Positions 7,339 through 53,584 of a stretch of DNA of 64,000 nucleotides are shown here, one piece after another. Source of the DNA: Multifurca ochricompacta (Eukaryota > Basidiomycota > Agaricomycetes > Russulales > Russulaceae); the NCBI GenBank assembly GCA_022496185.1, contig WTXG01000086.1, positions 82,969 through 146,968 on the forward strand, given 5' to 3'. The notes under the pieces are model-generated. The model ran no database searches, had not been told where the DNA came from, and saw nothing but the letters and a program-made list of their open reading frames with translations. How positions within the stretch are numbered: the stretch's first letter is position 1; each line of letters opens with the position of its first letter. The translations under genes and the position numbers were made by a program.

Positions 7339-7340
7339 TT

Positions 7341-14680: not shown

Positions 14681-14708
14681 GTGTGCTTGAGGCAAGCACC
14701 ACTGTAAC

Positions 14709-14718
14709 AGAGGGGTGA
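14709..14718 (+). promoter_or_regulatory. Element A polypurine tract
   Basis: agaggggtga immediately before the 3' LTR (14719). It would prime plus-strand DNA synthesis. The same purine core abuts the 3' LTRs of B, C and D. Confidence 0.7.
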
Positions 14719-24440: not shown

Positions 24441-24504
24441 AACAGTACGTTGTGCATCTAACTGTAGAGGTCCCTGGTAAATAAAGACATCTCTTGGTCC
24501 GGGA

Positions 24505-27714: not shown

Positions 27715-27716
27715 TC

Positions 27717-27727
27717 AAGTCGAGTCT
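27717..27727 (+). promoter_or_regulatory. D2 self-priming site
   Basis: aagtcgagtct, 2 nt inside the LTR, is the exact complement of agactcgactt in the D2 LTR. It is now separated from the rest of D2 by the D1 insertion at 27744. Confidence 0.75.
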
Positions 27728-27743
27728 CTCATCGTGGCTTCCA

Positions 27744-28315: not shown

Positions 28316-28317
28316 TC

Positions 28318-28328
28318 AAGTCGAGTCT
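28318..28328 (+). promoter_or_regulatory. D1 self-priming site
   Basis: aagtcgagtct, 2 nt after the LTR, is an 11-nt perfect complement of 28084-28094. The length equals the 11-nt self-primer known for Tf1. Confidence 0.78.
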
Positions 28329-28334
28329 CTCATC

Positions 28335-29852: not shown

Positions 29853-32800
29853 CCGGCTCAACCCCATCGGCCTGGGCACGAGCATTGCATGTAACCTCTG
29901 TGTATACTAGTCGCTTCAAATCGTTGAAAATACCAGTACATTTCGAGACTACACAGAGGACGGCCGATCGTGACATCCTGGTTGACTCAGGAGCTACCGA
30001 CAACTTCATAAGCCCGCGAATGGTGAAAACCATGGGGCTGGGAATGCTGGCATTACCCCAGGAAAAGAATATCTGGAATATTGACGGAACCGCCAACCGT
30101 GCTGGAAAGATCACGCATTACACCGACCTCAATGTCCAAGTGGGAGAAGGAATGAAAGTTATACGCTTCCTAGTCACCAATCTAGGCGGAGAAGATCTAG
30201 TCTTGGGATATCCCTGGCTCGCCGCATTCGAACCAAAGATCAATTGGAGCGATGCGACAATGGATAAGGACTTCTACCCTGTACTCATCACATCGATAGG
30301 GTATGATTATAAAGTCCGACACTCCGTAGCGCGCAAGGCAGACACAGACGAAGAAAGCTCAGGAAACTGCTTCGTCACCAAAGCATCCGAACTCGCACAG
30401 AAAGCAGTGGAGGGACATGCAGAAAAGACGTTCGAAGAAGTGGTGCCAGCAGAATACCATCGACACTGGAAAGTGTTTTCGGAGGAGGAATCGCAACGTT
30501 TTCCCCCTGCACGACCATGGGATCATGCTATCAACTTCATACCCGATACCCCATCAGCGATAGACTGTAAAATCTACCCATTGTCACAGGCAGAACAGAC
30601 CGCGCTCATGGCATTCCTCGAAGAACATCTGGCAAAAGGATATATTCGCCCATCGAAGTCACCCTACGCATCGCCGTTCTTCTTCATTAAAAAGAAAGAC
30701 GGCAAGCTTCGACCTGTTCAGGACTACCGACGAATAAACGCCTATACTGTGAAGAACGCCTACCCCTTGCCACTCATCTCCGAGCTCATTGATACCATGA
30801 GGGACAAATCGTTGTTTTCCAAGATGGATGTCCGGTGGGGTTACAACAACATTCGGATTAAAGAAGGGGATCAATGTAAAGCGGCTTTCAAAACTAACCA
30901 GGGACTCTTCGAACCGAATGTCATGTTCTTTGGCCTTACCAACTCTCCTGCCACCTTTCAGTCAATGATGAACCACATATTCCGTGATCTTATCCTCACT
31001 GGTGAAGTGGTGGTTTACATGGATGACATACTGGTAGCAACTGGAAACGATCTAACCCATCATCGAGAGCGAGTACATCAGGTACTGGACATCCTACACA
31101 AACATGACCTATACCTCAAGCCCGCCAAGTGTTCATTCGAGCAGCCGAGTGTGGAATACCTGGGAGTCATCTTAGAAGGAGGACAGGTCCGCATGGACCC
31201 CGTAAAAGTGCAAGGAATCCGGGAATGGCCAGTGCCTACGTGTGTCAAGGACGTACGGTCATTCATCGGATTCTGTAATTTCTATCGACGCTTTGTCCGA
31301 GGTTTCTCAGGAATTGCTCAACCGCTGAACGGGTTATTGAAAAGGATGTCCCCTGGCATTGGACAGAAGAACACCAAACCGCCTTTGAACAAATCCGCGA
31401 CATTATTGGCTCAGAACCGGTCCTGTTGCAACCAGATTTGCAAAAACCGTTCGAACTTGAGGTTGATGCGTCCCACTTTGCAAACGGCGCCGTATTAAAT
31501 CAGCGGGACACAATGGGACTCCTCCACCCCGTGGCCTTTTACTCAGAAACATTCTCACCAGCGGAACGGAACTACGATATTTGGGACAGGGAATTACTGG
31601 CTATTGTAAAAGCTTTGCGACATTGGCGACCATACCTAGCGGGAACTCCGCACAAAACTGTTATTTACACCGATCATTCCAACCTACTGTACTGGAAAGA
31701 ACCCCACAAGATTAGCAGACGAGTCGCTCGCGAAGTCCTAGAGTTGGAAGAATACAACTTCGTGCTCAAACACGTCGCAGGAAGTCGCAATGCACGAGCT
31801 GACGCACTGTCACGACGACCGGATTTAAATGATGGTGGAGAGGATAACATTAACGTCACAGTACTCCCCGAAGAGGTCTTTGCAAGAGCTGCGGTTGTCA
31901 GCCTTCATGATATGGATTTATGGGCCCAAGTATCCCAAAATATGAACCAACAATTATGCGAGGCATGGGCCGATGCACATAATCTGAAAAAGATCGATGG
32001 CTTGTGGTGGAAGGACGGGGATCGACTCGTTGTCACCGGTGGCGACAACATTAAGAGGGGGGTGATCCATTTTCACCACGACCTCCCCTCTGCAGGACAC
32101 CCTGGCATCGCCAACACTTACGCTCTCGCCAAACGCGACTACTGGTGGCCAAACATGAAGAAGGATGTAGAGGAATACGTGAAAGGGTGCGCAGACTGCC
32201 AAGCCAACAAAGTAAACACGCACCCACAACCACCAGCACCATTCCCGATTACGCCAACAGCCTCACAACCATTCCAAACTATCGCCATGGATTTCATCGT
32301 CAAACTCCCCGTCTCCAGAGGCTTCGACACAGTCCTTACCATCACCGATCATGACTGTTCGAAGGCCGCGCTGTTCATACCCTGTAAAGAGTCCATCACA
32401 GCAGAAGGAGTAGCCAAACTCTACCTAGATCACGTCTACAGACACTACGGCCTTCCTGAAAAGATCATCTCAGACCGCGACCCACGCTTCACATCTGCGT
32501 TCGCTCGAGCACTCTGTAAAACGTTGAATATCGCCCAGAACATCTCCACAGCGTATCACCCACAGACAGACGGACAGTCGGAAAGGACAAACCAATGGCT
32601 CGAACAGTACCTTCGATTTTGGTGCAACGGACGACAGGACGATTGGGCGGACTGGCTAGCGACAGCGGAGTTTGCCCATAACTCTTGGCCCAACGGCACC
32701 ACAAAGCACTCCCCATTCTCACTCATCATGGGATGGACACCTCGAGCCACATGGACCGGAAAGCCGACGAACGTCCCTTCGGCCGCACAACGTATCAACC

Positions 32801-33329
32801 AATGGGAAGAGATTCGGAAATCAGCCAATGAAAACTTGTTGAAGGCGCAGAAGACCCTGGCAGAGAAGCCTACAAAGTTCACGCCTTATCGGACCAATGA
32901 CATGGTGTGGTTGGAAGGGAAGAATATTCACACGTCACACCTGACAGCCAAGTTAGCACCCCGACGTCACGGACCTTTCAAGATAACAAGGAAGCTGTCG
33001 GACGTGTCATATGAACTCGAACTCCCCCCTACATGGCGCATTCATCCAGTCTTCCATGCCAAACTGCTCACCCCATACAAGGAAACGACCCTGCATGGAG
33101 AAAACTTCTCGAGACCCCCACCTGACCTTATCGATGGGGAAGAGGAGTGGGAAGTAGAACGCATTCTGGATTCGAAGTGGCAAGGCCGAGGGCGCAAACT
33201 ATACTACCTGATTAAGTGGAAGGGATTCCCACCCTCCGACAACTCATGGAACCAGCCGGGGATATCTCTGCCCCGACCCTTATCGCGGAGTTTCACACCC
33301 GACACCCAGAAGCGCCCAAGAACAGTTAA
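29849..33329 (+). pseudogene. pol: D1 pol (two single-base frameshifts)
   Basis: Protease (VDSGATDNFISP, about 29978-30013), RT with YMDDIL (about 31016-31033), and RNase H (IYTDHSNLLYW). Integrase follows: zinc finger H..H..C..C (about 32068-32210, CADCQANK) and DDE core (MDFIVKLP, SDRDPRF, QSERTNQ). A GPY/F-like module (RRHGPFKI) and chromodomain (EWEVERILDS, YYLIKWKGFP, about 33145-33260) end the protein. One base is missing near 31345 (after LLK in the RT-RNase H connection) and one near 33252 (just before PAGDI); both are in short homopolymers. Otherwise it is nearly identical to D2. True activity depends on whether these indels are real. Confidence 0.93.
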
Positions 33330-33365
33330 AAGAACGGCCCCGGATTCTCTCAAGTCCCCCAGTAT

Positions 33366-34596
33366 ATGCTACCCCAGCGAATTACTACCACAGAAGAATC
33401 TATCATGTCTTTCATCGCTGCCAACGCCGCCGTCGACGCCTTCACCACCACGAATGTAGTTGTCGAGAACTTCCCCTCTACTCACCCTTCCACGCGCCCC
33501 TCCTCCCTATCGACTACGAAGCCGCGGAGGCCCGCGTCAAAAACCAATCCCCGAACCCAGACGACGACTTCACCCATTGCGAAGAACCCCACCCCAACGA
33601 CCTGCTCCACGGCGAAATTGACGATGAAGCCCTGAGTTCCCGTTCATCCCCAACAACCCCAACTCGTCGATGTACTTCCCCCTCGAAATTACAATGACTG
33701 ATGGATCCACAGCGATCGCCAAATACATCTACTATACCAATGGTGGGATGGATGTGGCGGGGTGTATGAAGAAGGACGGGCCAGTCTACGGAGCTCCAGT
33801 CTATCTGGAAGAAAGGTATACCGGTCGACTCCATCACACGCTGACAGATGAGCAGTTAGGCCATCTTTCCGCGGAGGATTGTCGCGCCTTCGCGATCGAC
33901 GAGGTACTAAATGACATGAGGCTACCGCGTCTAAAGGCAGAAGTTATGAGGTTGAGGAAGAGCATCACCCTGAGGAGGACGCTGAACGAACAATACAAGG
34001 AGCACGCGAAGATGATGGCGAGGTTGACAAACGGGATGTTCCAGCTGGAGTCGGAAATCGTGGACATCAGAAAGAGGTTGGAAGCGGGGGATGCGTACCA
34101 AACTATTGCTGAAAGGTACGCGGATACTTATGCACGACCCCTCCCCCCTCGAACTCTGGGCGCGGCTCCGACACTGCTGCCGAACCGACTTGAGATGCCA
34201 CGACTGCACGAGAACCCGCGCGGGGAGACCTGTTGGCGATGTGATAGCAAGTATCACATTAGTTGGAACTGCCCTCTCAACCGCAAATGGTGTCGACACT
34301 GCCGAAGCAATCTTCACTGGAGCCGGCACTGCATCTTCCGACGCGTAGGGGTGGCCCCAACAATCAACAACCCGTCGGGCTGGTGCGGCAAATGTCTCCG
34401 ACATAACGCTGGGCATAAAGAAATCGATTGCCCCATCTACGACTTGTGCCGCGCCTGTGGTCAGCGCGGCCCGTACGGCTTCCTCCGCACCCACGCGTGT
34501 CCACAGGAACTGGAGACCTATCGAATGGATGATCGTAATGTAGCCGATGATTATCTAGAGCTGGTACAGGATGATGATGGTACGAGTCGTTTCTAG
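33366..34596 (+). pseudogene. D1 third ORF (ORF3) with zinc knuckles
   Basis: Begins MLPQRITTTEESIMSF about 37 nt after the pol stop. Frameshifts near 33503 and 33632 break the first third; 33670-34596 is open and ends DDDGTSRF. Parts: an N-terminal domain (MYFPLEIT...AIAKYIYYTN), a helical, probably coiled-coil stretch (LKAEVMRLRKSITLRR; FQLESEIVDIRKRLEAG), then canonical CX2CX4HX4C knuckles CWRCDSKYHISWNC (about 34231-34272) and CRHCRSNLHWSRHC (about 34291-34332). CGKCLRHNAGHKEIDC and CRACGQRGPYG follow. The cysteine array suggests RNA or DNA binding. No known third-ORF family is recognised. Confidence 0.75.
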
Positions 34597-34613
34597 CCGG
34601 GACTGCTAGAACC

Positions 34614-34627
34614 AGAAGAGGGGGTGA
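34614..34627 (+). promoter_or_regulatory. D1 polypurine tract
   Basis: agaagagggggtga directly before the 3' LTR; plus-strand primer. Identical in D2 (41467-41480). Confidence 0.72.
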
Positions 34628-35199
34628 TGTTACGAACCCCGTCTTTACCCGTATTTTTCCTTTTACCTAACGACAACCCTTCCTTACCGCCCACTTTACA
34701 TTACTCGATCACGTCTCCGTCGTGGGATCCGTCACATGCCCTTCGTCCATCCCCGTGACCTCTTTGATTGTTCATATTTGCCTACCGTTATCTTCGTTAT
34801 CGTTTATCTTCTTATCATACGACCGGACACTTACTTAATTCCCTATCAGAAGCCAGGCTTTACGCCCACCGCTTTCGTATATTCGGGCCCACTTGACTCC
34901 GTTATCTTATCTATAGACGCCCACTCGATTACGTATATAAGTCCGCTGTAACTACCTTGTAGACTTCAGACTCGACTTATTGAATACATCGGTGCCTGTC
35001 TTTTGGACATCTCCTTTGATCACTTAGTTCCTTCGTCTCAGTGCTTCTGGCACTTTCCGTTCAACAGCGTCTGAGGTGCAGCCCTCCAGACGTTGACTCG
35101 TCCCATCTAAACTCCAAGAAGCCTTATTGGTTTCTTACCTGACTTCGTATAACGAGCTGTCGCACAAGTCGTGCAGAACGTCCAGCACCGGACGTAACA
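34628..35199 (+). repeat. D1 3' LTR
   Basis: 572 bp partner of 27744-28315, followed by TSD TTCCA at 35200-35204. Confidence 0.95.
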
Positions 35200-35204
35200 T
35201 TCCA

Positions 35205-36700
35205 GCCGCAGTCAGACCCTCTTTAAGGAAGAACCCATCGAACGCAGGGACGAGCCTGATCTCTCACAACAAGTACTTGGCTCTGCCACCTGGAAAGACT
35301 TTGAGTCCGAGTTTGGATACTACGTCTATCACGACGGAAGATATCAACCGGTAGAATACGACAACGAAAAAAGAGTTTGGTACCATATCCGATATTCGGA
35401 CAGCCGACACTCTTGGGTCACTACAGGACCCGCCCCACCTGAATTGGATTAGGACCATGGAGGGAGAATCCCCCGGCCATCGTTACGGACTCCAAGCCAG
35501 AAGAGTACGTAGAAGAACATAGTGAAGAAGCACTGGTATTAGCGTCAACTACATCCCCAGTTGCACCCGCAGTTGTCACGTCCAGAGCCCCTGCTTTGAC
35601 AACTCCCCAGATCTTGATACAATCCTCTGACACTGTCACCCCGTTTTACCAAAACATGTCTACCATTGCGGCCCAACTGCCCGACCCAGCCCCTCCTCCC
35701 CCACCACCTGCCATGTTACCACCCAACATCCCCCCACCATCGGGGTGGCTGTCAGGTGTACTACCCCAAACATTCACCGGGGATCGGTCGCAAAGCAAGA
35801 AGTTCATGTTGGAGTTCACGACCTTCAAGAACTTCAACCATGACGTCCCCCAAATCATCAACCCATTCCAGCGTGCCAACCTCTTCCTGTCACTAATCAG
35901 GGGAGAAGCCGTGGATGACTGGACAATGGAACAGCTAGAATGGCTGAATGAGCAGATTGAGAGTGGTCGTCGCACCACCAGTGAAGGCCTCTGGGAAACC
36001 ATTGCCCAGAGGTTCAAAGATGCGTTTACGGATGGGCAAGCCAAGCAGAAGGCTGCCCGAGAGCTGAAGTCCCTTAGGATGGAAAAGGGAGAGCTCGATG
36101 CTTACGTGGCTAAGTTCAGAAGCCTGGCCAACAGGGCCGGATATGATACTGATGAAGAGGCCACATTGGACCTTCTCTCCCAGGGGCTTCCCAACCCCCT
36201 GGTGAAAAAACATCATTCAATTCCACCACCCCAATGACTGGGATACGTGGGTTGACGCTGCTCGACGACAGCAGCAGGACTATTTGGACTTCCAGACCCG
36301 CTTCGGAGTCGATACAAAAAAAGGAAAGACCCGCGACCAGTGGAAGGCTGCCTTCGGGGTCAAACCCACACATGTCGGCCAGAGGGATCCAAACGCCATG
36401 GATACCTCAGCCGATAGGACCAGAGCCCGGGCTACCCTTACAGAAGATGAAAGACAGACCCTGATGAAGGAAGGGCGGTGCTTTCGCTGCAAAGCACAAG
36501 GACATATGTCAAGGGAATGCCCGAAGAAAGGGGTACGAGCGGCAGAAGCAACCATCACACCAGTTCAGAACAACCCACCGACCGTCAACAAAAAGACAAA
36601 GGAAGAAAAGGCGCAGGAAATATGGGCGAATATGATGAAGGAGAGTGAAGAAGTGCGAGCTATTCTGGTAGAGAAAGCATTCGCGAAAAAGGATTTTTAA
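35205..36700 (+). pseudogene. gag: D2 gag (remainder after D1)
   Basis: Continuation of the D2 Gag frame begun at 27723 and cut by D1. It matches D1 Gag closely; in the AUG-less extension most D1/D2 differences are synonymous. Breaks: one T lost near 35442 (PPEL, stop) and one A gained in the A-run near 36208 (LVKK). An ATG at 35456 in accATGgag is a CpG change (D1 has accgtgg). Polyproline is shorter than in D1. Zinc knuckle CFRCKAQGHMSREC is near 36479-36520; the frame ends GAT TTT TAA. Confidence 0.88.
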
Positions 36701-39700
36701 CCGGCTCAAACCCTTCGGCCTGGGCACGAGCACTACATGTAACCTCTGTGTATACTAGTCGCTTCAAGTCTTTGAAAATACCAGTACATTTCGAAACTAC
36801 ACAGAGGACGGCCGACCGTGACATCCTGATTGACTCAGGAGCCACCGACAATTTCATCAGCCCGCGAATGGCAAGAACCATGGGATTGGGAATGCTGGCA
36901 CTTCCCCAGGAAAAGAACATTTGGAACATTGATGGAACCGCCAACCGAGCAGGGAAAATTACACACTACACCGACCTCAATGTCCAAGTAGGAGAAAAAA
37001 CAAAAGTCATACGCTTCCTAGTCACCAACCTAGGTGGAGAAGATCTAGTCCTGGGATATCCCTGGCTTGCCGCGTTCGAGCCAAAGATTAATTGGAGCGA
37101 TGCGACCATGGATAAGGACTCCTACCCTGTGCTCATTACATCAATAGGGTACGATTACGCAGTCCGACACTCCTTGGCACGCAAGGCAGGAGTAAACGCA
37201 GAGGACCCGGGATGCTGTTTCACCACCAAAGCATCAGAACTCGCGCAGAAAGCGGTAGAAGGACACGCAGAGAAAACATTCGAAGAGGTGGTGCCATCGG
37301 AGTACCACAGACACTGGAAGGTGTTCTCGGAGGAGGAATCGCAACGTTTTCCCCCTGCACGACTGTGGGACCATGCCATTGATTTCATACCCGACACCCC
37401 GTCAGCAATTGATTGCAAAATCTACCCATTGTCACAGGCAGAACAAACCGCGCTCACGGCATTTCTCGAGGAGCATCTTGCAAAGGGGTACATCCGTCCA
37501 TCGAAATCACCCTACGCGTTGCCGTTCTTCTTCATCAAGAAGAAAGACGGCAAACTCCGACCTGTTCAGGATTACCGACGGATAAACGCCCATACTGTGA
37601 AGAATGCCTACCCCTTGCCGCTCATCTCCGAACTTATCGATACCATGAGGAATAAATCTTTGTTTTCCAAAATGGACGTCCGTTGGGGTTACAATAACAT
37701 CCGAATCAAAGAAGGGGATCAGTGTAAGGCGGCTTTCAAAACTAATCAAGGACTCTTTGAACCGAACGTTATGTTCTTCGGCCTTACTAACTCCCCTGCC
37801 ACTTTCCAATCGATGATGAACCACATATTCCGTGACCTCATTCTTACCGGCGAAGTAGTAGTGTACATGGATGACATACTCGTGGCAACTGAAAACGACC
37901 TGACCCACCACCGAGAACGAGTACATCAAGTGCTAGACATTCTACACGAACATGACTTATATCTCAAGCCTGCCAAGTGCTCATTTGAACAGTCAAGTGT
38001 GGAATACCTGGGAGTTATATTGGAGGGAGGACAAGTCCGAATGGACCCTGTAAAGGTACAAGGAATCCGAGAATGGCCTGTGCCCACGTGTGTTAAGGAC
38101 GTGCGATCTTTCATTGGGTTTTGCAATTTCTATCGACGTTTTGTCCGAGGGTTCTCCGGAATTGCTCAGCCGCTGAACGGGCTACTGAAGAAAGACGTTC
38201 CCTGGCATTGGACAGAAGACCATCAGACGGCTTTCGAACAGATTCGCGACATTATTGGTTCAGAACCAGTCCTGTTACAACCAGATTTGCAGAAACCCTT
38301 CGAACTTGAAGTCGATGCATCTCACTTTGCAAATGGCGCCGTATTAAATCAACGGGATGAGGCGGGACTCCTTCACCCTGTGGCCTTTTACTCAGAGACA
38401 TTCTCGCCGGCAGAACGGAATTACGACATTTGGGACAGGGAATTGCTGGCCATTGTGAAAGCATTGCGACATTGGCGACCGTATCTAGCGGGGACTCCTC
38501 ACAAGACTACTATTTACACTGATCACTCCAACCTACTGTATTGGAAGGAACCCCACAAGATCAGTCAACGAGTCGCTCGCGAAGTCTTAGAATTGGAAGA
38601 ATACAACTTCGTGCTCAAACACATTGCAGGAAGTCGCAACGCACGAGCAGATGCGCTGTCACGACGGCTGGACTGGGACGATGGTGGGGAGGATAACACG
38701 AATGTTACAGTACTCCCTGAAGAAGTCTTTGCAAGGACAGCAGTTGTCAGTCTTCATGACATGGATCTATGGGCCCAAGTGTCCCAGAATATGAATCAGC
38801 AGTTATGCGAAGCATGGGCCGAAGCACACAACCTGAAAAAGATTGACGGCCTGTGGTGGAAGGACGGGGATCGACTCGTTGTCACCGGTGGCGACAACAT
38901 TAAGAGGGGGGTGATCCATTTTCACCACGACCTCCCCTCTGCAGGACACCCTGGCATCGCCAACACTTATGCTCTTGCCAAACGCGACTACTGGTGGCCA
39001 AACATGAAGAAGGATGTGGAAGAATATGTGAAAGGATGCGCAGACTGCCAGGCTAACAAAGTAAACACGCACCCGCAACCACCGGCCCCATACCCAATTA
39101 CGCCTACAGCTTCACAACCATTCCAGACTATCGCCATGGATTTCATCGTCAAACTCCCCACCTCCAGAGGTTTCGATACCATTCTGACCATCACCGATCA
39201 CGACTGCTCAAAAGCGGCGCTGTTTATACCCTGCAAAGAGTCTATCACGGCAGAGGGAGTGGCCAAACTTTACCTGGATCATGTCTACAGACACTACGGC
39301 CTCCCGGAAAAAATCATCTCAGACTGCGACCCACGCTTCACATCCGCGTTTGCAAGGGCGCTTTGTAAAACGCTGAATATCGCCCAGAACATCTCTACGG
39401 CATATCACCCACAGACAGATGGACAGTCGGAAAGGACAAACCAATGGCTCGAACAGTATCTCCGATTCTGGTGCAACGGACGACAGGATGATTGGGCAGA
39501 CTGGCTAGCGACGGCAGAATTCGCACACAACTCCTGGCCCAATGGCACTACAAAGACCTCCCCATTCTCACTGATCATGGGATGGACACCTCGAGCCACG
39601 TGGACTGGAAAGCCGACTAATGTCCCTTCAGCCACGCAGCGTATCAACCAATGGGAAGAGATTCGGAAATCAGCCAATGAAAATCTGTTGAAGGCGCAAA

Positions 39701-40188
39701 GAACCCTGGCAGAAAGACCTACGCGGTTCACACCTTATCGGACCAATGACCTGGTATGGTTGGAAGGGAAGAACATTCACACGTCACACCCCACGGCCAA
39801 GTTAGTGCCCCGATGTCACGGACCATTCAAGATAACAAGGAAGCTGTCAGATGTGTCATACGAACTTGAACTCCCTCCCGCATGGCGCATCCACCCAGTT
39901 TTCCATGCCAAGCTGCTGACACCTTACAAGGAAACACCCATGCACAGAGAGAACTTCCCAAGACCCCCACCTGACCTTATCGATGGAGAAGAGGAGTGGG
40001 AAGTAGAACGCATTCTGGACTCGAAGCGACAAGGCCGAGGGCGCAAGCTGTTTTACCTAATCAAATGGAAAGGATTCCCAGCTTCTGACAACTCGTGGGA
40101 ACCAGCCGGAGATATCTTCGCCCCAGTCCTTATCGCGGAGTTTCATAACCAGCATCCAGAAGCGCCCAGAAACAGTTTAAAGAAGTAG
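36697..40188 (+). CDS. pol: D2 Pol polyprotein, full length
   Basis: An uninterrupted ~1,163-codon frame, in -1 to gag, so it would be made by frameshifting. Order with approximate positions: protease DSGATDNF (36833), RT with [13 protein letters not shown] (37525) and YMDDIL (37866), RNase H (IYTDHSNLLYW, 38513). The integrase zinc finger HHDLPSAGHPGI...CADCQANK (38926-39060) precedes the DDE core MDFIVKLP (39136), SDCDPRF (39330) and QSERTNQWLEQ (39424). A GPF module (39817) and a chromodomain EWEVERILDS...LIKWKGFP (39987-40080) complete it. The residue after the second catalytic Asp is Cys where D1 has Arg (CGC to TGC), another CpG change. All catalytic residues I can check are present. 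Confidence 0.95.
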   Translation, partial: LTGSNPSAWARALHVTSVYTSRFKSLKIPVHFETTQRTADRDILIDSGATDNFISPRMARTMGLGMLALPQEKNIWNIDGTANRAGKITHYTDLNVQVGEKTKVIRFLVTNLGGEDLVLGYPWLAAFEPKINWSDATMDKDSYPVLITSIGYDYAVRHSLARKAGVNAEDPGCCFTTKASELAQKAVEGHAEKTFEEVVPSEYHRHWKVFSEEESQRFPPARLWDHAIDFIPDTPSAIDCKIYPLSQAEQTALTAFLEEHLAKGYIRPSKSPYALPFFFIKKKDGKLRPVQDYRRINAHTVKNAYPLPLISELIDTMRNKSLFSKMDVRWGYNNIRIKEGDQCKAAFKTNQGLFEPNVMFFGLTNSPATFQSMMNHIFRDLILTGEVVVYMDDILVATENDLTHHRERVHQVLDILHEHDLYLKPAKCSFEQSSVEYLGVILEGGQVRMDPVKVQGIREWPVPTCVKDVRSFIGFCNFYRRFVRGFSGIAQPLNGLLKKDVPWHWTEDHQTAFEQIRDIIGSEPVLLQPDLQKPFELEVDASHFANGAVLNQRDEAGLLHPVAFYSETFSPAERNYDIWDRELLAIVKALRHWRPYLAGTPHKTTIYTDHSNLLYWKEPHKISQRVAREVLELEEYNFVLKHIAGSRNARADALSRRLDWDDGGEDNTNVTVLPEEVFARTAVVSLHDMDLWAQVSQNMNQQLCEAWAEAHNLKKIDGLWWKDGDRLVVTGGDNIKRGVIHFHHDLPSAGHPGIANTYALAKRDYWWPNMKKDVEEYVKGCADCQANKVNTHPQPPAPYPITPTASQPFQTIAMDFIVKLPTSRGFDTILTITDHDCSKAALFIPCKESITAEGVAKLYLDHVYRHYGLPEKIISDCDPRFTSAFARALCKTLNIAQNISTAYHPQTDGQSERTNQWLEQYLRFWCNGRQDDWADWLATAEFAHNSWPNGTTKTSPFSLIMGWTPRATWTGKPTNVPSATQRINQWEEIRKSANENLLKAQRTLAERPTRFTPYRTNDLVWLEGKNIHTSHPTAKLVPRCHGPFKITRKLSDVSYELELPPAWRIHPVFHAKLLTPYKETPMHRENFPRPPPDLIDGEEEWEVERILDSKRQGRGRKLFYLIKWKGFPASDNSWEPAGDIFAPVLIAEFHNQHPEAPRNSLKK

Positions 40189-40216
40189 CCCCAGGCCCTC
40201 TTGAATCCCCCAGTAC

Positions 40217-41449
40217 ATGCTACCCCAGCAACTTACTACCACCGAATACTCTATTATGTCTTTCATTGCTGCCTCTGCCACCACCGATGCCTTCGCTTCC
40301 CCGATGGCCGTTGTCAAAAACTTCCCCTCTGCCCACCCGTCCACTTGTCCCTCTTCCCCTATCGATTATGATGCCGTGGAGGCCCGCGTCAAGAACCAAT
40401 CCCCGAACCCGGACGACGACTTCACCCACAGCGAAGAGCCCCATCCCAATGACTTGCTCAACGGAGAGATTGACGATGAAGCCCCCGAGTTCCCGTTCAT
40501 TCCCAACAACCCCAATTCCTCAATGTACTTCCCGCTAGAGATTACCATGGCCGACGGCACTACAGCAATCGCAAAGTACATCTATTACACCAATGGTGGG
40601 ATGGATGTGGCTGGGTGTATGAAGAAGGATGGGCCGGTCTACGGGGCTCCCGTTTATTTGGAAGAAAGGTACACAGGTCGGCTTCATCACACACTGACCG
40701 ACGAACAGCTGGGCCATCTTTCCGCGGAGGACTGTCGCGCCTTCGCCATCGATGAGGTGCTGAACGACATGAGACTCCCGCGCCTGAAGGCGGAAGTTAT
40801 GAGGTTAAGGAAGAGCATCACGTTGCGGAGGACGTTGAACCAACAATATAGGGAGCACGCGAAAATGATGGCCAGGCTGACGAACGGGATGTTCCAATTG
40901 GAGCAGGAGATTGTGGACATCAGGAAAAGGTTGGAGGCGGGAGATGCATATCAGACGATCGCAGAAAGGTACGCCGACACCTATGCACGGCCTCTTCCCC
41001 CTCGCACCCTGGGAGCTGCCCCGACATTGCTGCCAAACCGACTCGAGATGCCACGGCTGCATGAAAATCCGTGCGGGGAAACCTGCTGGCAATGTGATAG
41101 CAAGTATCACATCAGCTGGAACTGCCCGCTCAACCGCAAGTGGTGTCGACACTGCCGCAGCAATCTTCATTGGAGCCGGCACTGTATCTTTTGACATGTA
41201 GGAGTGGCCCCGACGATCAACAACCCATCGGGCTGGTGTGGCAAATGCCTTCGTCACAACGCCGGGCACAAGGAGATTGACTGTCCCGTCTACGACCTGT
41301 GCCGCGCCTGTGGTCAGCGCGGCCCGTACGGCTTTCTTCGCACCCACGCATGTCCACAAGAACTGGAGTCATATGGGGAGGACGATCATAATGTAGCTGA
41401 CGACTATTTGGAGCTGGTGCAGGATGATGACGGTATGAGTCGTTTCTAG
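40217..41449 (+). pseudogene. D2 third ORF (ORF3), zinc-knuckle protein, one nonsense codon
   Basis: Starts at ATG 40217, 28 nt after the pol stop, and would be about 410 residues. N-terminal domain about residues 100-190 (MYFPLEIT, AIAKYIYY, GCMKKDGPVYGAPVY), helical region about 185-240, zinc knuckles CWQCDSKYHISWNC (about 290-303) and CRHCRSNLHWSRHC (about 310-323). After TGA at about 41192-41194, CGKCLRHNAGHKEIDC and CRACGQRG follow. The stop is CGA in D1, so it is a CpG change. It shares spacing and key words with the ORF3 of element C over residues about 100-260. Likely a nucleic-acid-binding accessory protein; translation would need re-initiation, readthrough or splicing. Confidence 0.78.
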
Positions 41450-41480
41450 CCGGGACTGCTAGAACCAGAAGAGGGGGTGA

Positions 41481-42049
41481 TGTTACGCACCCCGTCCCTC
41501 CCTGTCTTTTTCTTCTTACCCAGTGACGAACCTTCCCAACCACCTACCCTTCACTATACGATCACGTCTCCTTCGTGGGACCCATCACATGCCCTTCGCC
41601 CATCCACGTGACTTATTTGTTTCCCTCTGTTTACCTACGCTTATCGCTTATCACCTTATCATAAGACCGGACACTTACTTAATTCCCTATCAGTAGAAGC
41701 CAGGCTTTACGCCCTCCGCTTCCAGATATTTGGGCCCACTTGACTCCGTGATTTCTTATCAGTAGACGCCCGTTTTCTTACGTATATAAGCCCACTGTAG
41801 CTACACTGTAAAGCTCAGACTCGACTTATTGAATACATCGGTGCCTGTCTTCTGGACATCCCTTGTAACCACTTAAGTTCCTTCGTCTCAGTGCTTCCGG
41901 CACTTTCCGTTCAACATTGTCTTAAGGAACAGCCCTTTTGACTTTGACTCATCTCACCTGAACTCCAAGGAGCCTTATTGGTTTCTTACCTGATCTTGTA
42001 ACTGAGCTGTCACACAAGTCGTGTGGAGCGTCCCGCACTGGACGTAACA
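41481..42049 (+). repeat. D2 3' LTR
   Basis: 569 bp, TGTTACGCACC...GGACGTAACA, preceded by the polypurine tract agaagagggggtga and followed by TSD CTCGT (42050-42054). Confidence 0.95.
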
Positions 42050-42647
42050 CTCGTGCTACAGTGGACAAAAACACCAAGATCTATGCCTTCCGAAGCATGA
42101 TCAATCAGGGTCTAGGACAGAAACTCCTTGGACTATCCCCCCAGCCAACCACACTCCATGATCTTGTCACTAAGGCCAGAGAGTTTGATGCAGCATGGCA
42201 GCTTTATGGCAAGACCACCAAGCCTTGGCCTCTCCATCTGCGCATTGGAGAAACTACCACTGATAACCCAGAAACCCAAGTCAACTTTGTTGCCTCTTCC
42301 CAGCCCAGAAACCCTAGCACCCCTCCATGCACTACCAAGTTGACCCCAGAAGAAAAGAAGTATCAATGAGAAAACAAGCTTTGCTTCTATTGTGGGAAGC
42401 CTAATCACATTGCCAATCAATGTCGCAGCAAGACCAGGGCCATCCAAGGTCAAGGACCTCCTTGCCCTACCCCAGTAAGAGCCCTGGCCTCAGAAGAAGC
42501 ACCCCCCCAAGCACCACGACCCCCCCCTGACTACCTCTCAGTATCTGCCACCAAGAGCTATGAAGATCCAGTACCATACATGATGGACGAAGATGGACCT
42601 TCAGATTTTTAACACGTCCTACAGCTGCACTGTCTGTGAGGACTTCT

Positions 42648-43170
42648 TGTCACAGTTAGGTGCGGGAACTGTGTCGAGGTCGAACAAGAGGAAGCAACTT
42701 CAGTCAAGTCTCAAGGTCACGAAGGGTCAAGTCTGGTTCAAGCCCACAACAGAGTCGATAGGGCACGCGCGAGAGTCGAGGTCGACGGCAGAGACACTCA
42801 GTCCTGCAACAAATTCAAGAGGTTCGAAGGCTCTCCAAGTCGCGTCTTGGAGAGTTCAAGTGGGGTTCTTTCTGGGAGAGTTCGATGAAGTCACAAGCAC
42901 CTTGGATTGGAACACAAGAGAACAGACTTAGGTCTGTCTCTCTACTTTACTGTACTTTAAATACAGGTGGGTTTAGCTATGTCATAGTGGGTAGAGGGTT
43001 CTAGTACTATGATGTATGATCTAGTGGTTGCGCAGTAGAACTAGCTAGAACCATGGAGAAGGAGGAGGGGTTGAGCCCTCAGTAAGCAACAGTAAAGTAG
43101 TGTGTCAATAAAAGTCCGTTTCTTTGTCAGTCAGTCTCATGTCACCTTAGCCAGTGTAAAATCCGTCACA
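42648..43170 (-). repeat. Element C 3' LTR
   Basis: 523 bp, on the minus strand TGTGACGG...CTGTGACA. The polypurine tract caaggggagtga abuts it (43171-43182). Confidence 0.95.
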
Positions 43171-43182
43171 TCACTCCCCTTG
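43171..43182 (-). promoter_or_regulatory. Element C polypurine tract
   Basis: On the minus strand caaggggagtga immediately before the 3' LTR; plus-strand primer. Confidence 0.7.
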
Positions 43183-43205
43183 TACAGTTCAGCTTGTCCC
43201 CAAGC

Positions 43206-44429
43206 TCAGTGACCAACTGTGAATGTAATCATGTGAGGAGGTAGTGTGAGACGACGGCGGGAGCGAGGGCGGCGTGTACTGCCAACTCCACCAGCTTGAA
43301 GGATTGCGCGGAGTTCAGGATTGGGGGCAAAGGTCATGGCTTCTGCTGCAGTAGGGATTATGTCCCAAGTGGGTGCATATACATAAGTGAGATAAGGGAA
43401 GAGGCGATAGTAAACATCAGCCCTAGACATGGCATGGACCGTTTCTTGGATGTCTTGGTGGGCTCGGCTAACCTGTCGTCTCCAGTGGGCCAGTTCACGA
43501 AGAGCGCCATCCAGTCGTCGAGTAGCATAGCGGAAGCGGGCAACTTCTGCCCAAGCACCTGGATCCTGAAGTTCATCCAATGCATGACTGACGATTGGTG
43601 TAAATTCTGTGTCTGGGTCAAAGAGTCGTTGCTGAAAGAGTGTGAGGATAGGATTGGGGAAACCTGGGTGTCGGGCATGAGGTCGTGCATATAGAGGAAA
43701 GCGGAAGATAGGCTCATCAGCCCCCATGGTGCAGACAACAGTGGGCTCATCTTGTCGAAAGTCGTAAGCAATGTAGCGAGCAATCCTTCGATAACCATGT
43801 GAGTCAGTGATTAAATGGGGAAAGTAGTGACAAGTGTTATGCATGTGGTTGCGGATAAATGGGGGGCCTGGATAAGTGTAAGGGATGGGTGATTGTCGGG
43901 TAGCAGCAGCATTGCCAGGTAGACGTTCCAGTTCTGGGGTAGGTGGTCGCTGGTCTCCAGTATCATTCTGGGTTTGAGTTCCTCCAGTAGCATCAGCCTC
44001 TAAGCGTGCACGTGTCTCCTGTAGCATGGTCAATACACGGTTACGAACTGCTGGGTCTAGATTTTGATTCACAGATGTTGTAATAGAGATGGCATTGGTG
44101 AGGGTTTGGATGGGATCGTCAGACATAGTAAAGGAAAAGTGTGAAGGAGGGGTTGATGAAGCCGGTGTGGTTGGAAGTGTAGGGGCATCTTGCGGAAACT
44201 TGAGCGCACCTAGGTTTGCTGCATCAGCAGCAGCAACAGCAAACTGGTCTCTGAAGTTAGGGTCTGGGGTGGAGGGTGAAGGCTGAGTGTTGGTAGGTCG
44301 GCGTGTGGTAGACATCCTAGGGCCTGGTTTGACACCTTTGCGTGGGGAAAAGAGGCGAGTGAGTCGTTTGGTGCGGGCCATGATAAGAGGAAGAAGTGTG
44401 TATGTGGGGGAAAGGAGGTGGGAAAACAT
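43206..44429 (-). CDS. Element C third ORF (ORF3), intact, unknown function
   Basis: 407 codons, ATG at 44429, only 15 nt after the pol stop, ending shortly before the polypurine tract. A later ATG at residue 17 (MARTKRLTRL) is an alternative start. The N-terminal ~190 residues are low complexity, basic at first, with PPSHFSFTM and a helical RVLTMLQETRARLEAD. A folded-looking part (about 195-355) reads HYFPHLITDS, RRIARYIAYDF, CTMGADEPIFRFPLY, LQDPGAWAEVARFRYATRRL, MSRADVYYRLFPYLTYVY. An Arg-rich tail (RRPRSRRRL, about 386-394) follows. No zinc knuckle, signal peptide or membrane helix, so not Env. It is homologous to the broken ORF3 of A and, over the folded part, apparently to ORF3 of D. 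Being open in the youngest element suggests it is needed. Confidence 0.8.
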   Translation of the reverse strand: MFSHLLSPTYTLLPLIMARTKRLTRLFSPRKGVKPGPRMSTTRRPTNTQPSPSTPDPNFRDQFAVAAADAANLGALKFPQDAPTLPTTPASSTPPSHFSFTMSDDPIQTLTNAISITTSVNQNLDPAVRNRVLTMLQETRARLEADATGGTQTQNDTGDQRPPTPELERLPGNAAATRQSPIPYTYPGPPFIRNHMHNTCHYFPHLITDSHGYRRIARYIAYDFRQDEPTVVCTMGADEPIFRFPLYARPHARHPGFPNPILTLFQQRLFDPDTEFTPIVSHALDELQDPGAWAEVARFRYATRRLDGALRELAHWRRQVSRAHQDIQETVHAMSRADVYYRLFPYLTYVYAPTWDIIPTAAEAMTFAPNPELRAILQAGGVGSTRRPRSRRRLTLPPHMITFTVGH

Positions 44430-44433
44430 GTAG

Positions 44434-44444
44434 TCACCCCCTTC
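44434..44444 (-). promoter_or_regulatory. Internal polypurine tract after C pol
   Basis: On the minus strand gaagggggtga, directly after the pol stop and before the ORF3 ATG. It mirrors the tract at 12868-12878 in A. Confidence 0.4.
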
Positions 44445-47400
44445 TTAAGGGAGGCGTTGTCCCTGACGCCTGGGAAGAGAATCATAGTATTGTTTGATCA
44501 GTGCCGGGGCATGACAGTCGGAGCTATCAACCCAAGAGTTCTCACTGGCAGGATAGCCGACCCAGCTGACTAGAAATTGGAGCTTCTTAGAACGCCCATG
44601 GAGCCGGTGATTGAGGATAGCTGCCACTTCATATTCTTCTTCCTGATTAATAAGCTCTGGTGGGGGCCTGAGGTAATTGGGGCCATGTGCAACAGTTTCT
44701 AGATAGGGAGATAGAAGATCAATATGAAACACATCATGGATATTCATGTGGGAAGGCAGGGACAAGCGATACGCCACAGGGGAGATACAGTTCAGAATGC
44801 GGAAGGGGCCGTAACGGCGGGGGGCCAACTTAGTCGATGGGAAGTGGGTCTTCAGGTTGCGCCCTTCCAACCAAACCTGAGTGCCTACTGCGAGAGGAGG
44901 TCGCGTCGGGCGACTCGTGTGGGTTCGAAGCGCTAGTTCAGCGCGGGTACGTGCAGCCTGAAGATCGCGGAGACGGGTGTCAACTTGAGGGACACTAGAC
45001 TCGGATAACTGTCCGTTCCAATCGAACGAAACGCCGTGTATTAGCGCATGCGGAGACAGCTTGGATTTGTCGTGTGTCCATGAATTATGGACGAATTCGG
45101 CTAATGGCAAGTAGTTCGGCCATCGAGATTGATCGTCACCAAGCCAAAGGCGGAGGTATTGTTCGAGCCATAGATTCATACGTTCGCTCGAACCGTCCGT
45201 TCGGGGATGAAAAGCGGTCGACAGGTTTTGTTGGATACCCAGTGTGCGGGCGAGTTCACGGGAAAAGTGTGAGGTAAACCGGGGATCTCGATCAGAGATG
45301 ATACGTCGTGGGACACCAAAGGTCGGAAAAACATGTCGATAATACAGGGTAGCGATCCCTTCCCCCGTGATATCTTTCGAGCAAGGAATGAATTTTGCTG
45401 ATTTGGAGCAGCCTTGGTCCACAATCGTGAGTACCGCATTGTAACGCCCCGAGGGCGGGAGATCCGTGATAAGATCCATCGCGACATACTGAAAGGGGCC
45501 GGCCGAGGCCGGTACATCGAACGGAAACAAAGGGGCTTTCTTAGTTAACTTTGGTTTATTTTCTTGACATGTCGCGCAACCCTGAACATATTCGCAGACG
45601 AACTCCCTAAGACCGACGCCATCGTAATCGGCTAATACCTTTCGCGTAGTCTTTTCAATACCCGGGTGTCCCGCGAGGACATGATCGTGATAACGTCGGA
45701 GAATGTCCCGTCGCGTTAGCAGATCGGACGGGAAGGGGTGTTTAACTGTTTGTAGCGTTCGGAGAAATAATTTGTTGGGGAGGATTACGACTTTTTCATT
45801 GTCTTCGGTTCCGCGATCAGCGTCGGGCCGTCGTGAGAGCATATCTGCCACGGTGTGTAATTTTCCGGGAACGTGTTCCAGAGAGAAATCAAAATCTGCC
45901 AATTCCTGAAGCCAGCGGGCCTGTCTTCGGTTGAGTTTTTGTGGTTCTCGAAAATACTGTAAGTTATTATGGTCTGTGCGGACCTGAACTTTGTGTCGGG
46001 CTCCAAGGAGATATTGACGCCAGACACGAAAGGCGACCATAATCGCGAATAATTCTCTATCATATATGTCCCAATTTCTCTGAGTCTCGTCAAGCGTTTT
46101 GGAGAGGTATGCGATAGGATGTAAGCGTCCCACAGGGTCCTTCTGGCTTAACGTGGCCCGACGGCATATCCAGAAGCATCTGTATCTACGATAAACGGCT
46201 GTTCAAAATTCGGTTGTGCGAGCACCGGTTGAGAGGTTACGCGTTCTTTAAGTGTATCGAAGGCTGCTGTTCTGCCGCCGTCCACTTCCACAGATTCTTG
46301 GCACTGGTCAGGGCATTCAGAGGGGCGGCAATCTTGCTAAAGCCCTGAATGAAGCGACGATAGAACTGGCAGAACCCTAAGAACGATCGGACTTCTTTCA
46401 CGGTTGTGGGAACCTTCCAGGTGGCGACGCCTTCCACTTTGACTGGATCCATATGAACTTGATTCGCCTCCAAGATGAGTCCAAGGTATTCTATTCGCGT
46501 TTGTTCGAAGGCACACTTTTCTGGTTTGAGGTAGAGATCTAAGCGATTGAGTTTATCCAGAACACGATGGACCTTGGATCGGTGGTTGTCGAGATCGTTA
46601 TCTGTGTGAATAAGGATGTCGTCCATATAGACTGTAAACCACGCCTTTCCTGTTGCGTCGTGATCATTGAGTTCATCTCTGAACTCGGCATTCATCATGG
46701 TCTGGAATGTCGCGGGGGAGTTGGTTAAGCCAAAGAACATCACATTGGGTTCAAAGAGGCCCCGATTAGTTTTGAACGCGGCTTTCCAGCGGTCTTCGGG
46801 TACGATACGGATATTGTTGTAGCCCCAGCGGACGTCCATCTTTGTGAACAGAGTACTTCCTCGGACTCGATCGATAAGTTCCGGAATGAGCGGGAGAGGA
46901 TAAGTGTTTCGGATCGTCCAGTTATTCAGTTTACGATAATCTTGTACGGGTCTAAGTTTTCCGTCCTTCTTCTTAATAAAGAAGAATGGAGATGCGTATG
47001 GCGATTTTGATGCCGAAATATAGCCCTTTTCAAATGTTCGTCAAGGAAAGCGTTCAACGCGTCTTGTTCTCCCGGTCCGAGTGGATAGATCTTACAGTCC
47101 ATTGAGGCCGGCGCGTCTGCTTTTAGTTCGATTTTATGGTCCCAGGGTCGTTCTGCGGGGAAGCGTTGAGCTTCCTGGTCACTGAATACTTTCTGGTGTC
47201 GGTGATACTCCGAAGGGACGATCTGATCCCAGGATCGTTCTATCTTATCTTTAGCCTTGATTGCTAACTCTTGCGCGATGTTGAGTCGCTTTATCTGTTC
47301 GGTGGGTAGACCGAATGTGACCTCGTCCATAAGGTGTCCTGCTGTCCAATCTATGTGTGGGTTATTTGCTGCGAACCACGGATATCCTAGAATCACTTCA

Positions 47401-47735
47401 TCCTTTCCGATTGACGCGACGTAAAATCTGTGTTGTTGCGCTTTGTCATTGGTGACGACACGTAGATCGACGCATCGTGTGATATAACGCGTGGCATTAG
47501 GTGATCCATCTGCGTTTTGTAGTTGTTTCGGAATTGTCAGGCACTTCGTGGGGAGTCTGTGTTTGATTACTGTTTTATAATTAATAAAGTTTTCTGTGGC
47601 TCCACTGTCGATGAGAGCTTCTATGTTGGCCTCTTTTTTCACTCCATGTAATGGAACAGAGATTGTCATTGCTCTAATAGGTGATCTAAATACATGGTGT
47701 GAGATTAACGCTCGAATGAAGGCCGCATCATTCAA
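44445..47735 (-). pseudogene. pol: Element C pol (three single-base shifts)
   Basis: Minus strand, -1 frame to gag. Protease IDSGATENF (about 47606), RT with YMDDIL (about 46628), RNase H, integrase (HDHVLAGHPG, CATCQENK about 45560; MDLITDLP, SDRDPRF, SERMN about 45180) and chromodomain (EYEVAAILNH, LVSWVGYPA, about 44550-44630). Shifts near 47025 (run of A/G), 46262 (cagcag) and 46155 (gggcc) separate three long open blocks; the 562-codon block 46133-44445 covering late RNase H, integrase and chromodomain is clean. All three shifts are at short repeats, so sequencing or assembly error is possible in an element with identical LTRs. Confidence 0.93.
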
Positions 47736-48904
47736 GCGATATAAAAATCCTCATCCCCTTTGAATTTACTCTGAAGGGCGAGGCGTTGATCGTCGTTCAT
47801 GGATCGAAGAGCGTTGGCGAGCGCGTCGACGTCTATCTCGGTCGTCTCTGCCGGTTTCTGTGCGTGAGCTTTCGGAGGTGCCGTTGTAGCTGTCGAAGGG
47901 ACTTCCGTGATCGTGGCGGTCCGAGCCGGGCTACTGGCACTGGTGCTGGTATTAATGCGCGGCTTCTTATTCGGGCAGTCCCTGGCGAGATGTCCTTGGC
48001 GCCCACACTCAAAGCATCGGCCATTCTTCCTATATTGCTCTTTCTCTTCCATTGTAATTGCCTTTTTGATGACGTCGGCTCCTTGTGAGTGTGGGTCCGA
48101 CTCGCGTTTCTTATAAAACGTAAATTTGTTGCCTCGGGGTGGTGTGTTTGTTGTCGACCGCGTGCTGAGGGCGTCTTTGCTATACAACCAGTTTGCATGG
48201 TGTTTCCTGGCCGAGGCCGCTGCTTCATCGAACGTCTTAGGTTGGTCAAATAGGAGCATAGTCTGAACCAATCGCGTGGGGAGGCCTCGGTGAAAGAATT
48301 GCCGAGCGGCTGGGTCATCAATATGGAGTTCGGCCCTTGTAGCCAGCGTGCGAAACTCGGCGATGTATTCGTCGATATTGGAATCTTTCATTTGTAAGCG
48401 ATCTAATGCTCGCAGCGCTTTCTGTCCAGCCGCCACGTCGGCCCATGCATCTCGGAATATTTGTCTAAATTTGTCCCAAATGTATGGGACTCGGATGTTT
48501 CCCTCTTTGATGTCGGTCAACCATTTGATCTGGTCTATCACCCATCGGTCTACTCGGGGTCCCCGTAGCAATCCTAGTGTGAACGCAACTCTCGTTCTTT
48601 CGTTCTGAACCATGGCTACTGTTTCATTGAGGCTGAAGAACAGTTCCAGTTTGGCGAGCCAATCCATAGCAATGTCTCGGTCTCCGTCGAAGAAGGGTGG
48701 TGGTACGCCCATCATGGGCCCTCCCGAATACGTTGTCCCTCCTCCTGGAGCGGGGGGTCCTTGCGGTGGTTCATCAGGATTTCTTCCTGTCATTCTGGGA
48801 TTTGGCCTATCTTCGGGGCTTCGTTCGGGTCGACCGGTCTGCGACTCCACGATGTCCTCCTCCGCGGCCCTTCGTGCCTGCCTGGTGTTTGGTCTAGTCG
48901 TCAT
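47732..48904 (-). CDS. gag: Element C Gag
   Basis: 390 codons from ATG 48904, the first ATG downstream of the predicted transcription start; the leader of roughly 720 nt has none. It opens MTTRPNTRQARRAAEED and has a Pro/Gly-rich linker. A retrotransposon Gag capsid-like region (about residues 70-240; FFDGDRDIAMDWLAKLELFF, WADVAAGQKALRALDRLQM, DSNIDEYIAEFRTL) and one zinc knuckle CFECGRQGHLARDC (about 47980-48021) follow, ending GDEDFYIA. Pol begins in the overlapping -1 frame. It forms the particle in which reverse transcription occurs. Intact. Confidence 0.93.
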   Translation of the reverse strand: MTTRPNTRQARRAAEEDIVESQTGRPERSPEDRPNPRMTGRNPDEPPQGPPAPGGGTTYSGGPMMGVPPPFFDGDRDIAMDWLAKLELFFSLNETVAMVQNERTRVAFTLGLLRGPRVDRWVIDQIKWLTDIKEGNIRVPYIWDKFRQIFRDAWADVAAGQKALRALDRLQMKDSNIDEYIAEFRTLATRAELHIDDPAARQFFHRGLPTRLVQTMLLFDQPKTFDEAAASARKHHANWLYSKDALSTRSTTNTPPRGNKFTFYKKRESDPHSQGADVIKKAITMEEKEQYRKNGRCFECGRQGHLARDCPNKKPRINTSTSASSPARTATITEVPSTATTAPPKAHAQKPAETTEIDVDALANALRSMNDDQRLALQSKFKGDEDFYIA

Positions 48905-49338
48905 TGTGTGTGGTGTTGGTACTTCTGTGTTTTCGTCGTTTGGGGTGGGGCTATCTGCTGCCGCAAGAAGAGCAAAGCGGTTATGGAAGTCAATAGGTAA
49001 GTCGCCGTGCGATTGTGGTTCTAACTCGTCTGTCAGGTATCGGAGTGGGGAGTTGTCTTCAAGAGACGCTTCTTCGGACGTTGGGGATCGGGGGTCACGC
49101 GCTGAGTAAGACGTTGCGCTGTCGAGATTCGGGCAAGGGACGCGATGTCGTCGCCTTGCAATTCAGGTGAGTGTTTCGAGTGTTCGTTTATAGAGATTAC
49201 TGATCGCGTCAATAGTCAAGCAGCTTCGGGGTCGTCTGTCGGTTCTGTAGTCGGGGTTCGGGCTCGGGTGTCAGGACAAGGGACGCGTCGTCGTCGCCTT
49301 GTACGTTCGGTGAGTTCTGGTGTCCTCTTGTTTGAAAG
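48905..49338 (-). other. Element C leader, AUG-free, mostly open in places
   Basis: Between PBS and gag ATG. On the minus strand it contains no ATG. It holds two copies of a 25-nt unit (49276-49300 and 49134-49158) reading caaggcgacgac..gcgtcccttg, which encodes QGDD-ASL and whose ends can pair (CAAGG/CCTTG). Element A has one copy (7390-7414). It could be an N-terminal Gag extension, an RNA signal, or both. Confidence 0.45.
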
Positions 49339-49349
49339 AAGTCTGTTCT
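49339..49349 (-). promoter_or_regulatory. Element C self-priming site
   Basis: On the minus strand agaacagactt, 2 nt inside the LTR, complementary to the sequence at 49623-49633 in the LTR. Confidence 0.75.
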
Positions 49350-49351
49350 AA

Positions 49352-49874
49352 TGTCACAGTTAGGTGCGGGAACTGTGTCGAGGTCGAACAAGAGGAAGCA
49401 ACTTCAGTCAAGTCTCAAGGTCACGAAGGGTCAAGTCTGGTTCAAGCCCACAACAGAGTCGATAGGGCACGCGCGAGAGTCGAGGTCGACGGCAGAGACA
49501 CTCAGTCCTGCAACAAATTCAAGAGGTTCGAAGGCTCTCCAAGTCGCGTCTTGGAGAGTTCAAGTGGGGTTCTTTCTGGGAGAGTTCGATGAAGTCACAA
49601 GCACCTTGGATTGGAACACAAGAGAACAGACTTAGGTCTGTCTCTCTACTTTACTGTACTTTAAATACAGGTGGGTTTAGCTATGTCATAGTGGGTAGAG
49701 GGTTCTAGTACTATGATGTATGATCTAGTGGTTGCGCAGTAGAACTAGCTAGAACCATGGAGAAGGAGGAGGGGTTGAGCCCTCAGTAAGCAACAGTAAA
49801 GTAGTGTGTCAATAAAAGTCCGTTTCTTTGTCAGTCAGTCTCATGTCACCTTAGCCAGTGTAAAATCCGTCACA
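49352..49874 (-). repeat. Element C 5' LTR
   Basis: 523 bp, identical by eye to 42648-43170. A TATA-like tatttaaa on the minus strand lies about 40 bp upstream of the predicted start taagtctgttct. Followed on the plus strand by TSD CTTCT. Confidence 0.95.
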
Positions 49875-53571: not shown

Positions 53572-53584
53572 AAAGAGGGGATAG
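53572..53584 (+). promoter_or_regulatory. B2 polypurine tract
   Basis: aaagaggggatag directly before the LTR at 53585. There is no room for a third ORF: the chromodomain frame ends at 53543. Confidence 0.7.

Follow-up and report, generated by a model that had tools for sequence, protein, structure and literature searches.

A third gene shared by separate Ty3/Gypsy lineages of Multifurca ochricompacta: a selected and possibly nucleic-acid-binding accessory protein family

Why do some Ty3/Gypsy elements of the basidiomycete Multifurca ochricompacta carry a third gene after pol, and do these genes belong together? The question is raised by a stretch of 64,000 nucleotides (nt) of contig WTXG01000086.1 (positions 82,969 to 146,968, referred to as the window). 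Fungal elements with long terminal repeats (LTRs) are usually described as gag and pol only (excerpt of PMC3248453). In the element families C, A and D of the window a third open reading frame (ORF3) lies downstream of the chromodomain and ahead of the 3' LTR, where an initial annotation of this DNA had seen it. The length of about 410 residues stated there agrees with C (407 residues) and with D2 (410 codons), one of two D elements, whereas the D and A copies of the window are damaged and only C has an intact ORF3. The second D copy, D1, is open from 33628 for 322 codons and 95% identical to that of D2. In A, the extra length is mainly due to an inserted C-like LTR stretch (13573-13958, plus strand, 83% identical to the C LTR), which sits within ORF3.

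Judged by profile comparison, the third ORFs of C, A and D are homologous and form one family. The words noticed earlier in the C and D sequences are present in the order given. Smith-Waterman alignment of C with D ORF3 scored 102; 1000 shuffles gave a maximum of 74 and a mean of 36.8. Profiles were built from 26 C/A-type and 20 D-type sequences and run against 1252 six-frame ORFs of the window with at least 30 amino acids (aa). With the C/A profile both D ORF3s were found at E 8e-12 and 3e-10 (next match 0.74), and with the D profile C and A were found at 5e-5 and 6e-4 (next match 0.28). The comparison of hidden Markov models proposed by the initial annotation was run with hhalign and gave a significant match, in which residues 85-262 of D are aligned to 184-360 of C over 171 columns (probability 96.6, E 6e-10). 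Most of the significance comes from an initial module of some 65 residues, which alone was significant in both directions (8e-8 and 1.4e-5; best reversed decoy 0.047), and the helical region of C and D agrees in position. The pol genes of these families are well separated, as had been noted: from integrase to chromodomain C and D are 45% identical, and the corresponding pieces of A, B, C, D and E are 33-47% identical between lineages.

ORF3 is under strong purifying selection. Ratios of nonsynonymous to synonymous substitutions (dN/dS) were obtained by Nei-Gojobori counts. For D, 25 stop-free copies of 30 loci (300 pairs) gave a mean dN of 0.034, a mean dS of 0.97, which is near 1 and hence a rough estimate, and a median dN/dS of 0.036. 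The median was 0.096 for six C loci (12 of 15 pairs usable) and 0.087 for five A-type loci (5 of 10 pairs usable, with saturation in the others). With the 14 D loci in which both frames are open, 0.035 was found for ORF3 and 0.057 for the 3' part of pol. In 200 simulations of neutral evolution, run at the transition bias seen in the data, the mean was 0.65 and the lowest value 0.44, with 6.5 stops per copy on average. The ratios across copies, suggested earlier as a check, are thus far below 1 in all three types, and with the significant profile match the proposal of a shared accessory family stands.

The gene is widespread in the same genome, in which a Multifurca ochricompacta protein is matched with identity over 400 of 400 residues. 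C ORF3 has at least 103 matching places, fragments included, and D ORF3 at least 102, the best-scored among 2230 candidates; for the protein of a second D subfamily there are at least 151, which may overlap the 102 D places. In loci found by ORF3, the sequence upstream contains the end of pol in all 30 D cases, and pol in six of six intact C and five of five A-type loci. Starting from integrase, 31 of the first 50 places (137 listed) have a listed ORF3 at most 2 kb away, and in 30 of these 31 the distance is 606-630 nt. None of the 102 listed ORF3 matches belongs to the other 19 places, which does not show that ORF3 is missing there. No ORF3 profile match was found within about 1.6 kb after pol in the five loci of family E (L083-L087), and ORF3 is also missing from the single B copy whose pol end is complete, according to the profile search of window ORFs. 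The stops in decaying ORF3 copies are mostly TGA, an uncounted impression from the listings; such an excess is what C-to-T mutation of methylated CpG in CGA codons would give, in line with host defence.

The two types of protein share the module and differ in their ends. In the D type an ATG that aligns with the start of the second subfamily is followed by the shared module, a helix-like stretch and four Cys/His clusters. Clusters 1-3 are present in 40 of 40 D-group loci and cluster 4 in 39, the sole miss (L065) being shortened by a stop. The C/A type consists of a basic N-terminus, a proline-rich stretch, the shared module and an Arg-rich tail; for both ends of C ORF3 an isoelectric point of 12.0 was computed. 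Local elements of a C structure model are helices at residues 106-119 and 126-148, strands at 206-245 (in the shared module) and a long helix at 290-334. Pfam scans of single copies and of all 20 and 26 members gave nothing below E 0.01. Against solved structures the D profile gave weak knuckle and coiled-coil matches only (lowest E 0.057), among them the knuckles of retroviral nucleocapsid and LIN28 (E 0.06-1.6); no match was found for the C/A profile among solved structures, nor for ORF3 among viral contigs. The Cys/His clusters of D and the basic ends of C are, like the damage to the D and A copies and the second polypurine tract described below, additions to the initial annotation.

Two possible starts are seen in the C/A type. 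In the C/A alignment (26 rows, six gapped and one protein only), residue 17 of C is encoded by ATG in 10 and by CTG in 9 of the 19 rows with DNA. As this codon is ATG or CTG and nothing else, it looks like a near-cognate start. At residue 39 all 20 DNA rows have ATG (three gaps, three protein only). Codons 17-38 of three C loci have zero amino-acid changes, and synonymous changes are present (proportion of synonymous differences, pS, 0.33). Ahead of the D-type ORF3 start, CCCCAG or a similar sequence occurs in many copies (e.g. 40190-40256; L063-L072) and may act as a splice acceptor, by which ORF3 would get a message of its own.

A purine tract adjoins the 3' LTR in each of C, A, D1, D2 and B. 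Furthermore, the C/A elements retain a second tract between pol and ORF3, which is a new observation. The order in C and A is pol, a tract of the form CTTAARRRGGGGGTGA, ORF3 and the LTR tract. This pattern has 62 sites in the genome and its reverse none; 44 of the 62 are at most 700 nt ahead of an ORF3 place. With a looser pattern the tract was detected in 21 of the 30 loci L001-L030, and several of the misses are partial copies. The ORF3-less families B and E have their tract at this same place: in the one B copy it and the LTR come shortly after the end of pol, and in E a tract directly follows the pol stop in each of four loci inspected out of five (LTR not delimited). The arrangement suggests that ORF3 was added beyond an old 3' tract, which was kept as a relic or an extra primer.

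From these sequence features we tentatively suggest that ORF3 encodes a family of element-borne accessory proteins which bind nucleic acids, probably self-assemble and resemble a second nucleocapsid. Within the particle or the pre-integration complex, the protein would form a coat on the RNA or cDNA of the element. It would act in addition to the ordinary Gag of the D and C elements, which has a CCHC knuckle of its own. Oligomerisation would be driven by the long helix, and the two end types, the Cys/His array and the basic N-terminus with Arg-rich tail, would be alternative holds on RNA or cDNA. Translation of the C/A type would yield two forms, one beginning at residue 17 (ATG or CTG) and the other at the ATG of residue 39. 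The site of ORF3 gain would be downstream of a former 3' polypurine tract; this tract, left after pol and conserved in C/A, perhaps acts as an extra plus-strand primer. A wider proposal is rather unlikely to be right as a whole: a novel accessory class with a beta-plus-coiled-coil core, a lineage-swapped nucleic-acid-binding end (four zinc knuckles or Arg-rich arms) and CUG/AUG starts, coupled to the conserved second polypurine tract, which would make it a second nucleocapsid that takes part in plus-strand synthesis or packaging or works within the pre-integration complex.

Several results weigh against this picture. The C type is without Cys/His clusters, and those of D gave no match to Pfam zinc-knuckle models. 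The C structure model, of which local elements alone were used, is poor (mean predicted local distance difference test, pLDDT, 50; predicted template modelling score, pTM, 0.24). The helical part alone was not significant between the types (0.045 in one direction, no match in the other). Between the two starts, constraint is weaker in five subfamily loci, the ratio of nonsynonymous to synonymous differences (pN/pS) being 0.56 there and 0.34 in the rest. Of the 62 tract sites, 18 have no listed ORF3 behind them, and in D the second tract is weak, with TTAAAAG and a few purines after pol. The loci for dN/dS were picked as best ORF3 matches, which lowers dN somewhat; neither this choice nor the rough dS is judged able to turn 0.65 into 0.036. 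The C-like locus L088 (C301:79000-81120) has an open pol frame of 1103 aa and only a short decayed ORF3 remnant; judging from it, ORF3 may be dispensable or provided by other copies. Finally, the integrase tree groups D with the ORF3-less B and E, away from C/A, a placement made unsure by long branches, those of B and E being joined in the tree. Therefore a single simple gain is not shown, and one gain with losses cannot be told apart from transfer between lineages.

As the main rival explanation, ORF3 could be a regulatory or counter-defence factor (Tat/Rev-type or anti-silencing) with effect on transcription, RNA export or silencing, which is possible, if doubtful. The same parts fit this function, namely the Cys/His clusters of D and the basic N-terminus of C/A, which could be a nuclear signal. 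The TGA-biased stops would be in line with methylation as host defence, and plant Retand ORFs in this position were proposed to regulate transposition (excerpt of PMC11963269). However, no DNA-binding or other regulatory domain was detected at the Pfam cut-off, and no feature links ORF3 to silencing. It is improbable that ORF3 is a duplicated or rearranged Gag, i.e. a second capsid-nucleocapsid. The order of disordered start, core, helix and knuckles is Gag-like, and the D knuckles are CCHC-spaced like those in the Gags of D and C; in contrast, profile comparison, which covered the Gag of element C, revealed no capsid homology and gave weak pieces at E 0.059 (D, knuckle) and 0.022 (C/A, helix). 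The capsid fold is all-helical, whereas strands are predicted in the shared module (weak C model). Very improbable is an env-like membrane protein, for which a sense ORF between pol and the 3' LTR would be in the classical third-ORF position. By 19-residue hydropathy, the one method applied, neither a membrane helix nor a signal peptide was detected (maxima 0.88 for C and 1.21 and 1.75 for two D types, the last at the extreme N-terminus), in agreement with the initial annotation, which had reported neither a membrane helix nor a signal peptide. It is hardly credible that C and D ORF3 have no relationship and are alike only through helical low complexity. The lack of significance of the helix part alone would fit this, but the first module is significant both ways, and order and position agree.

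Features of ORF3 and of the elements of the window (positions of the window; pol domains include reverse transcriptase, RT)
Feature	Position	Strand	Remarks
C ORF3	43206-44429	minus	407 aa, single open frame, intact
D2 ORF3	40217-41449	plus	410 codons, in-frame TGA at codon 326
D1 ORF3	33366-34596	plus	two frame changes in first ~90 codons
A ORF3	12938-14680	plus	in pieces, broken by stops, ~1.74 kb
Shared module of C ORF3, residues 184-250	43680-43880	minus	
Shared module of D2 ORF3, residues 85-152	40469-40672	plus	
Long helix of C ORF3, residues 290-334	43428-43562	minus	model, pLDDT ~52-81 by blocks of ten
Four Cys/His clusters of D2 ORF3	41069-41371	plus	CX2CX4HX4C twice, CX2CX6HX4C, CX2CX10-12HXC
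ATG at C ORF3 residue 17	44379-44381	minus	possible near-cognate start
ATG at C ORF3 residue 39	44313-44315	minus	C/A alignment
ATG at D2 ORF3 residue 14	40256-40258	plus	aligns with start ATG of other D subfamily
Second polypurine tract right after C pol	44434-44449	minus	
Second polypurine tract right after A pol	12863-12878	plus	
Polypurine tract adjoining C 3' LTR	43171-43181	minus	
Polypurine tract adjoining D2 3' LTR	41468-41480	plus	
B polypurine tract	53572-53584	plus	tract and LTR at most ~60 nt from pol end (~53528)
Element C, chromodomain Ty3/Gypsy	42648-49874	minus	LTRs 42648-43170 and 49352-49874, 523 bp, identical
C pol 3' part	44445-46133	minus	RNase H, integrase, SH3, chromodomain
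Element A	6759-15298		
Element D2	27146-42049	plus	LTRs 27146-27714 and 41481-42049; holds D1
D2 pol	36748-40188	plus	protease, RT, RNase H, integrase, SH3, chromodomain
Element D1	27743-35199	plus	LTRs 27743-28315 and 34627-35199; just inside D2 5' LTR

The repeats suggest that the elements are nested, D1 within D2, and D2 and C within older copies of family B. Across 6759-55709 this suggests a relative insertion order of B, then D2 and C into B, then D1 into D2. The LTRs of D1 showed no difference over the 300 nt compared. In B, several kb separate the 5' LTR from pol and hold open frames of 344 and 262 codons (23379-25270, plus strand). These frames gave no match to either ORF3 profile and are perhaps another extra gene, placed in front of pol. 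Two further ORFs are located on the plus strand at 58238-59986 (582 aa) and 62120-63841 (573 aa). The former begins right after a D-LTR-like stretch and the latter precedes a reversed one.

Plants, rotifers and other fungi (Boty) already provide examples of extra ORFs after pol, thus the kind of gene is known. Literature and protein searches, within their limits, revealed neither the protein family nor its two end types nor its position in fungal chromodomain elements. In the open-licence literature no such ORF was found described for Russulaceae or fungal chromodomain elements. Among 5.8 billion proteins at least seven different matches were detected, all from Multifurca ochricompacta; no relative from another species was found, which does not show absence elsewhere, as the search needs shared 5-residue words and was partly confined to 8000 candidates, and as genes of this kind may be hidden where repeats were masked for annotation. 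The earlier remark that the family is possibly undescribed holds in so far as neither a Pfam family nor a protein of another species was found, and it rests on limited searches. What can be said is that a third gene, present in at least 100 places per type, is selected at least as strongly as the integrase end of pol. Such conservation suggests that the elements need something beyond gag and pol, and ORF3 may be a tool which they need to copy or protect themselves. The two end types, together with a tract possibly marking the insertion point, offer a testable route to accessory-gene gain in retroelements.

Regarding known systems, retroviral knuckles have the spacing CX2CX4HX4C, which is also that of D clusters 1 and 2, as in nucleocapsid and Gag. 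Unlike retroviral nucleocapsid, ORF3 of D has four clusters, the last two otherwise spaced, and a separate Gag in the same element, and no capsid homology was found by profile against the Gag of C. LTR elements of bdelloid rotifers have ORF3 types with a GDSL esterase, a DEDDy exonuclease or env (excerpt of PMC5408684). There, too, a third ORF after pol is common to separate lineages and missing from others, but in the rotifer proteins enzyme or fusion domains can be recognised. Among fungal LTR elements, Boty of Botrytis cinerea and Sclerotinia sclerotiorum has an additional ORF at this site (excerpt of PMC7264820); it is likened here by description alone, and its ORF is antisense. Plant Retand elements carry TRP28, a conserved antisense accessory ORF in the stretch between pol and the 3' LTR which is probably nucleic-acid binding (excerpt of PMC11963269), whereas ORF3 is sense-oriented. 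PF04195, the TRP28 domain according to the excerpt of PMC7264820, was not among the Pfam families found at E 1 with all 20 and 26 members. In the plant Ty3/Gypsy elements Athila and Calypso, sense additional ORFs (aORF-3S, env-like) are located between pol and the 3' LTR (excerpt of PMC7264820), and one extra polypurine tract was described in the linker of Athila4 and Calypso (excerpt of PMC2829016). Some of these plant ORFs encode membrane helices, unlike those seen here in fungal chromodomain elements. By description, to which the comparison is limited, Athila and Calypso share with the elements of Multifurca ochricompacta the sense ORF between pol and the 3' LTR and, for the C/A type, an extra tract.

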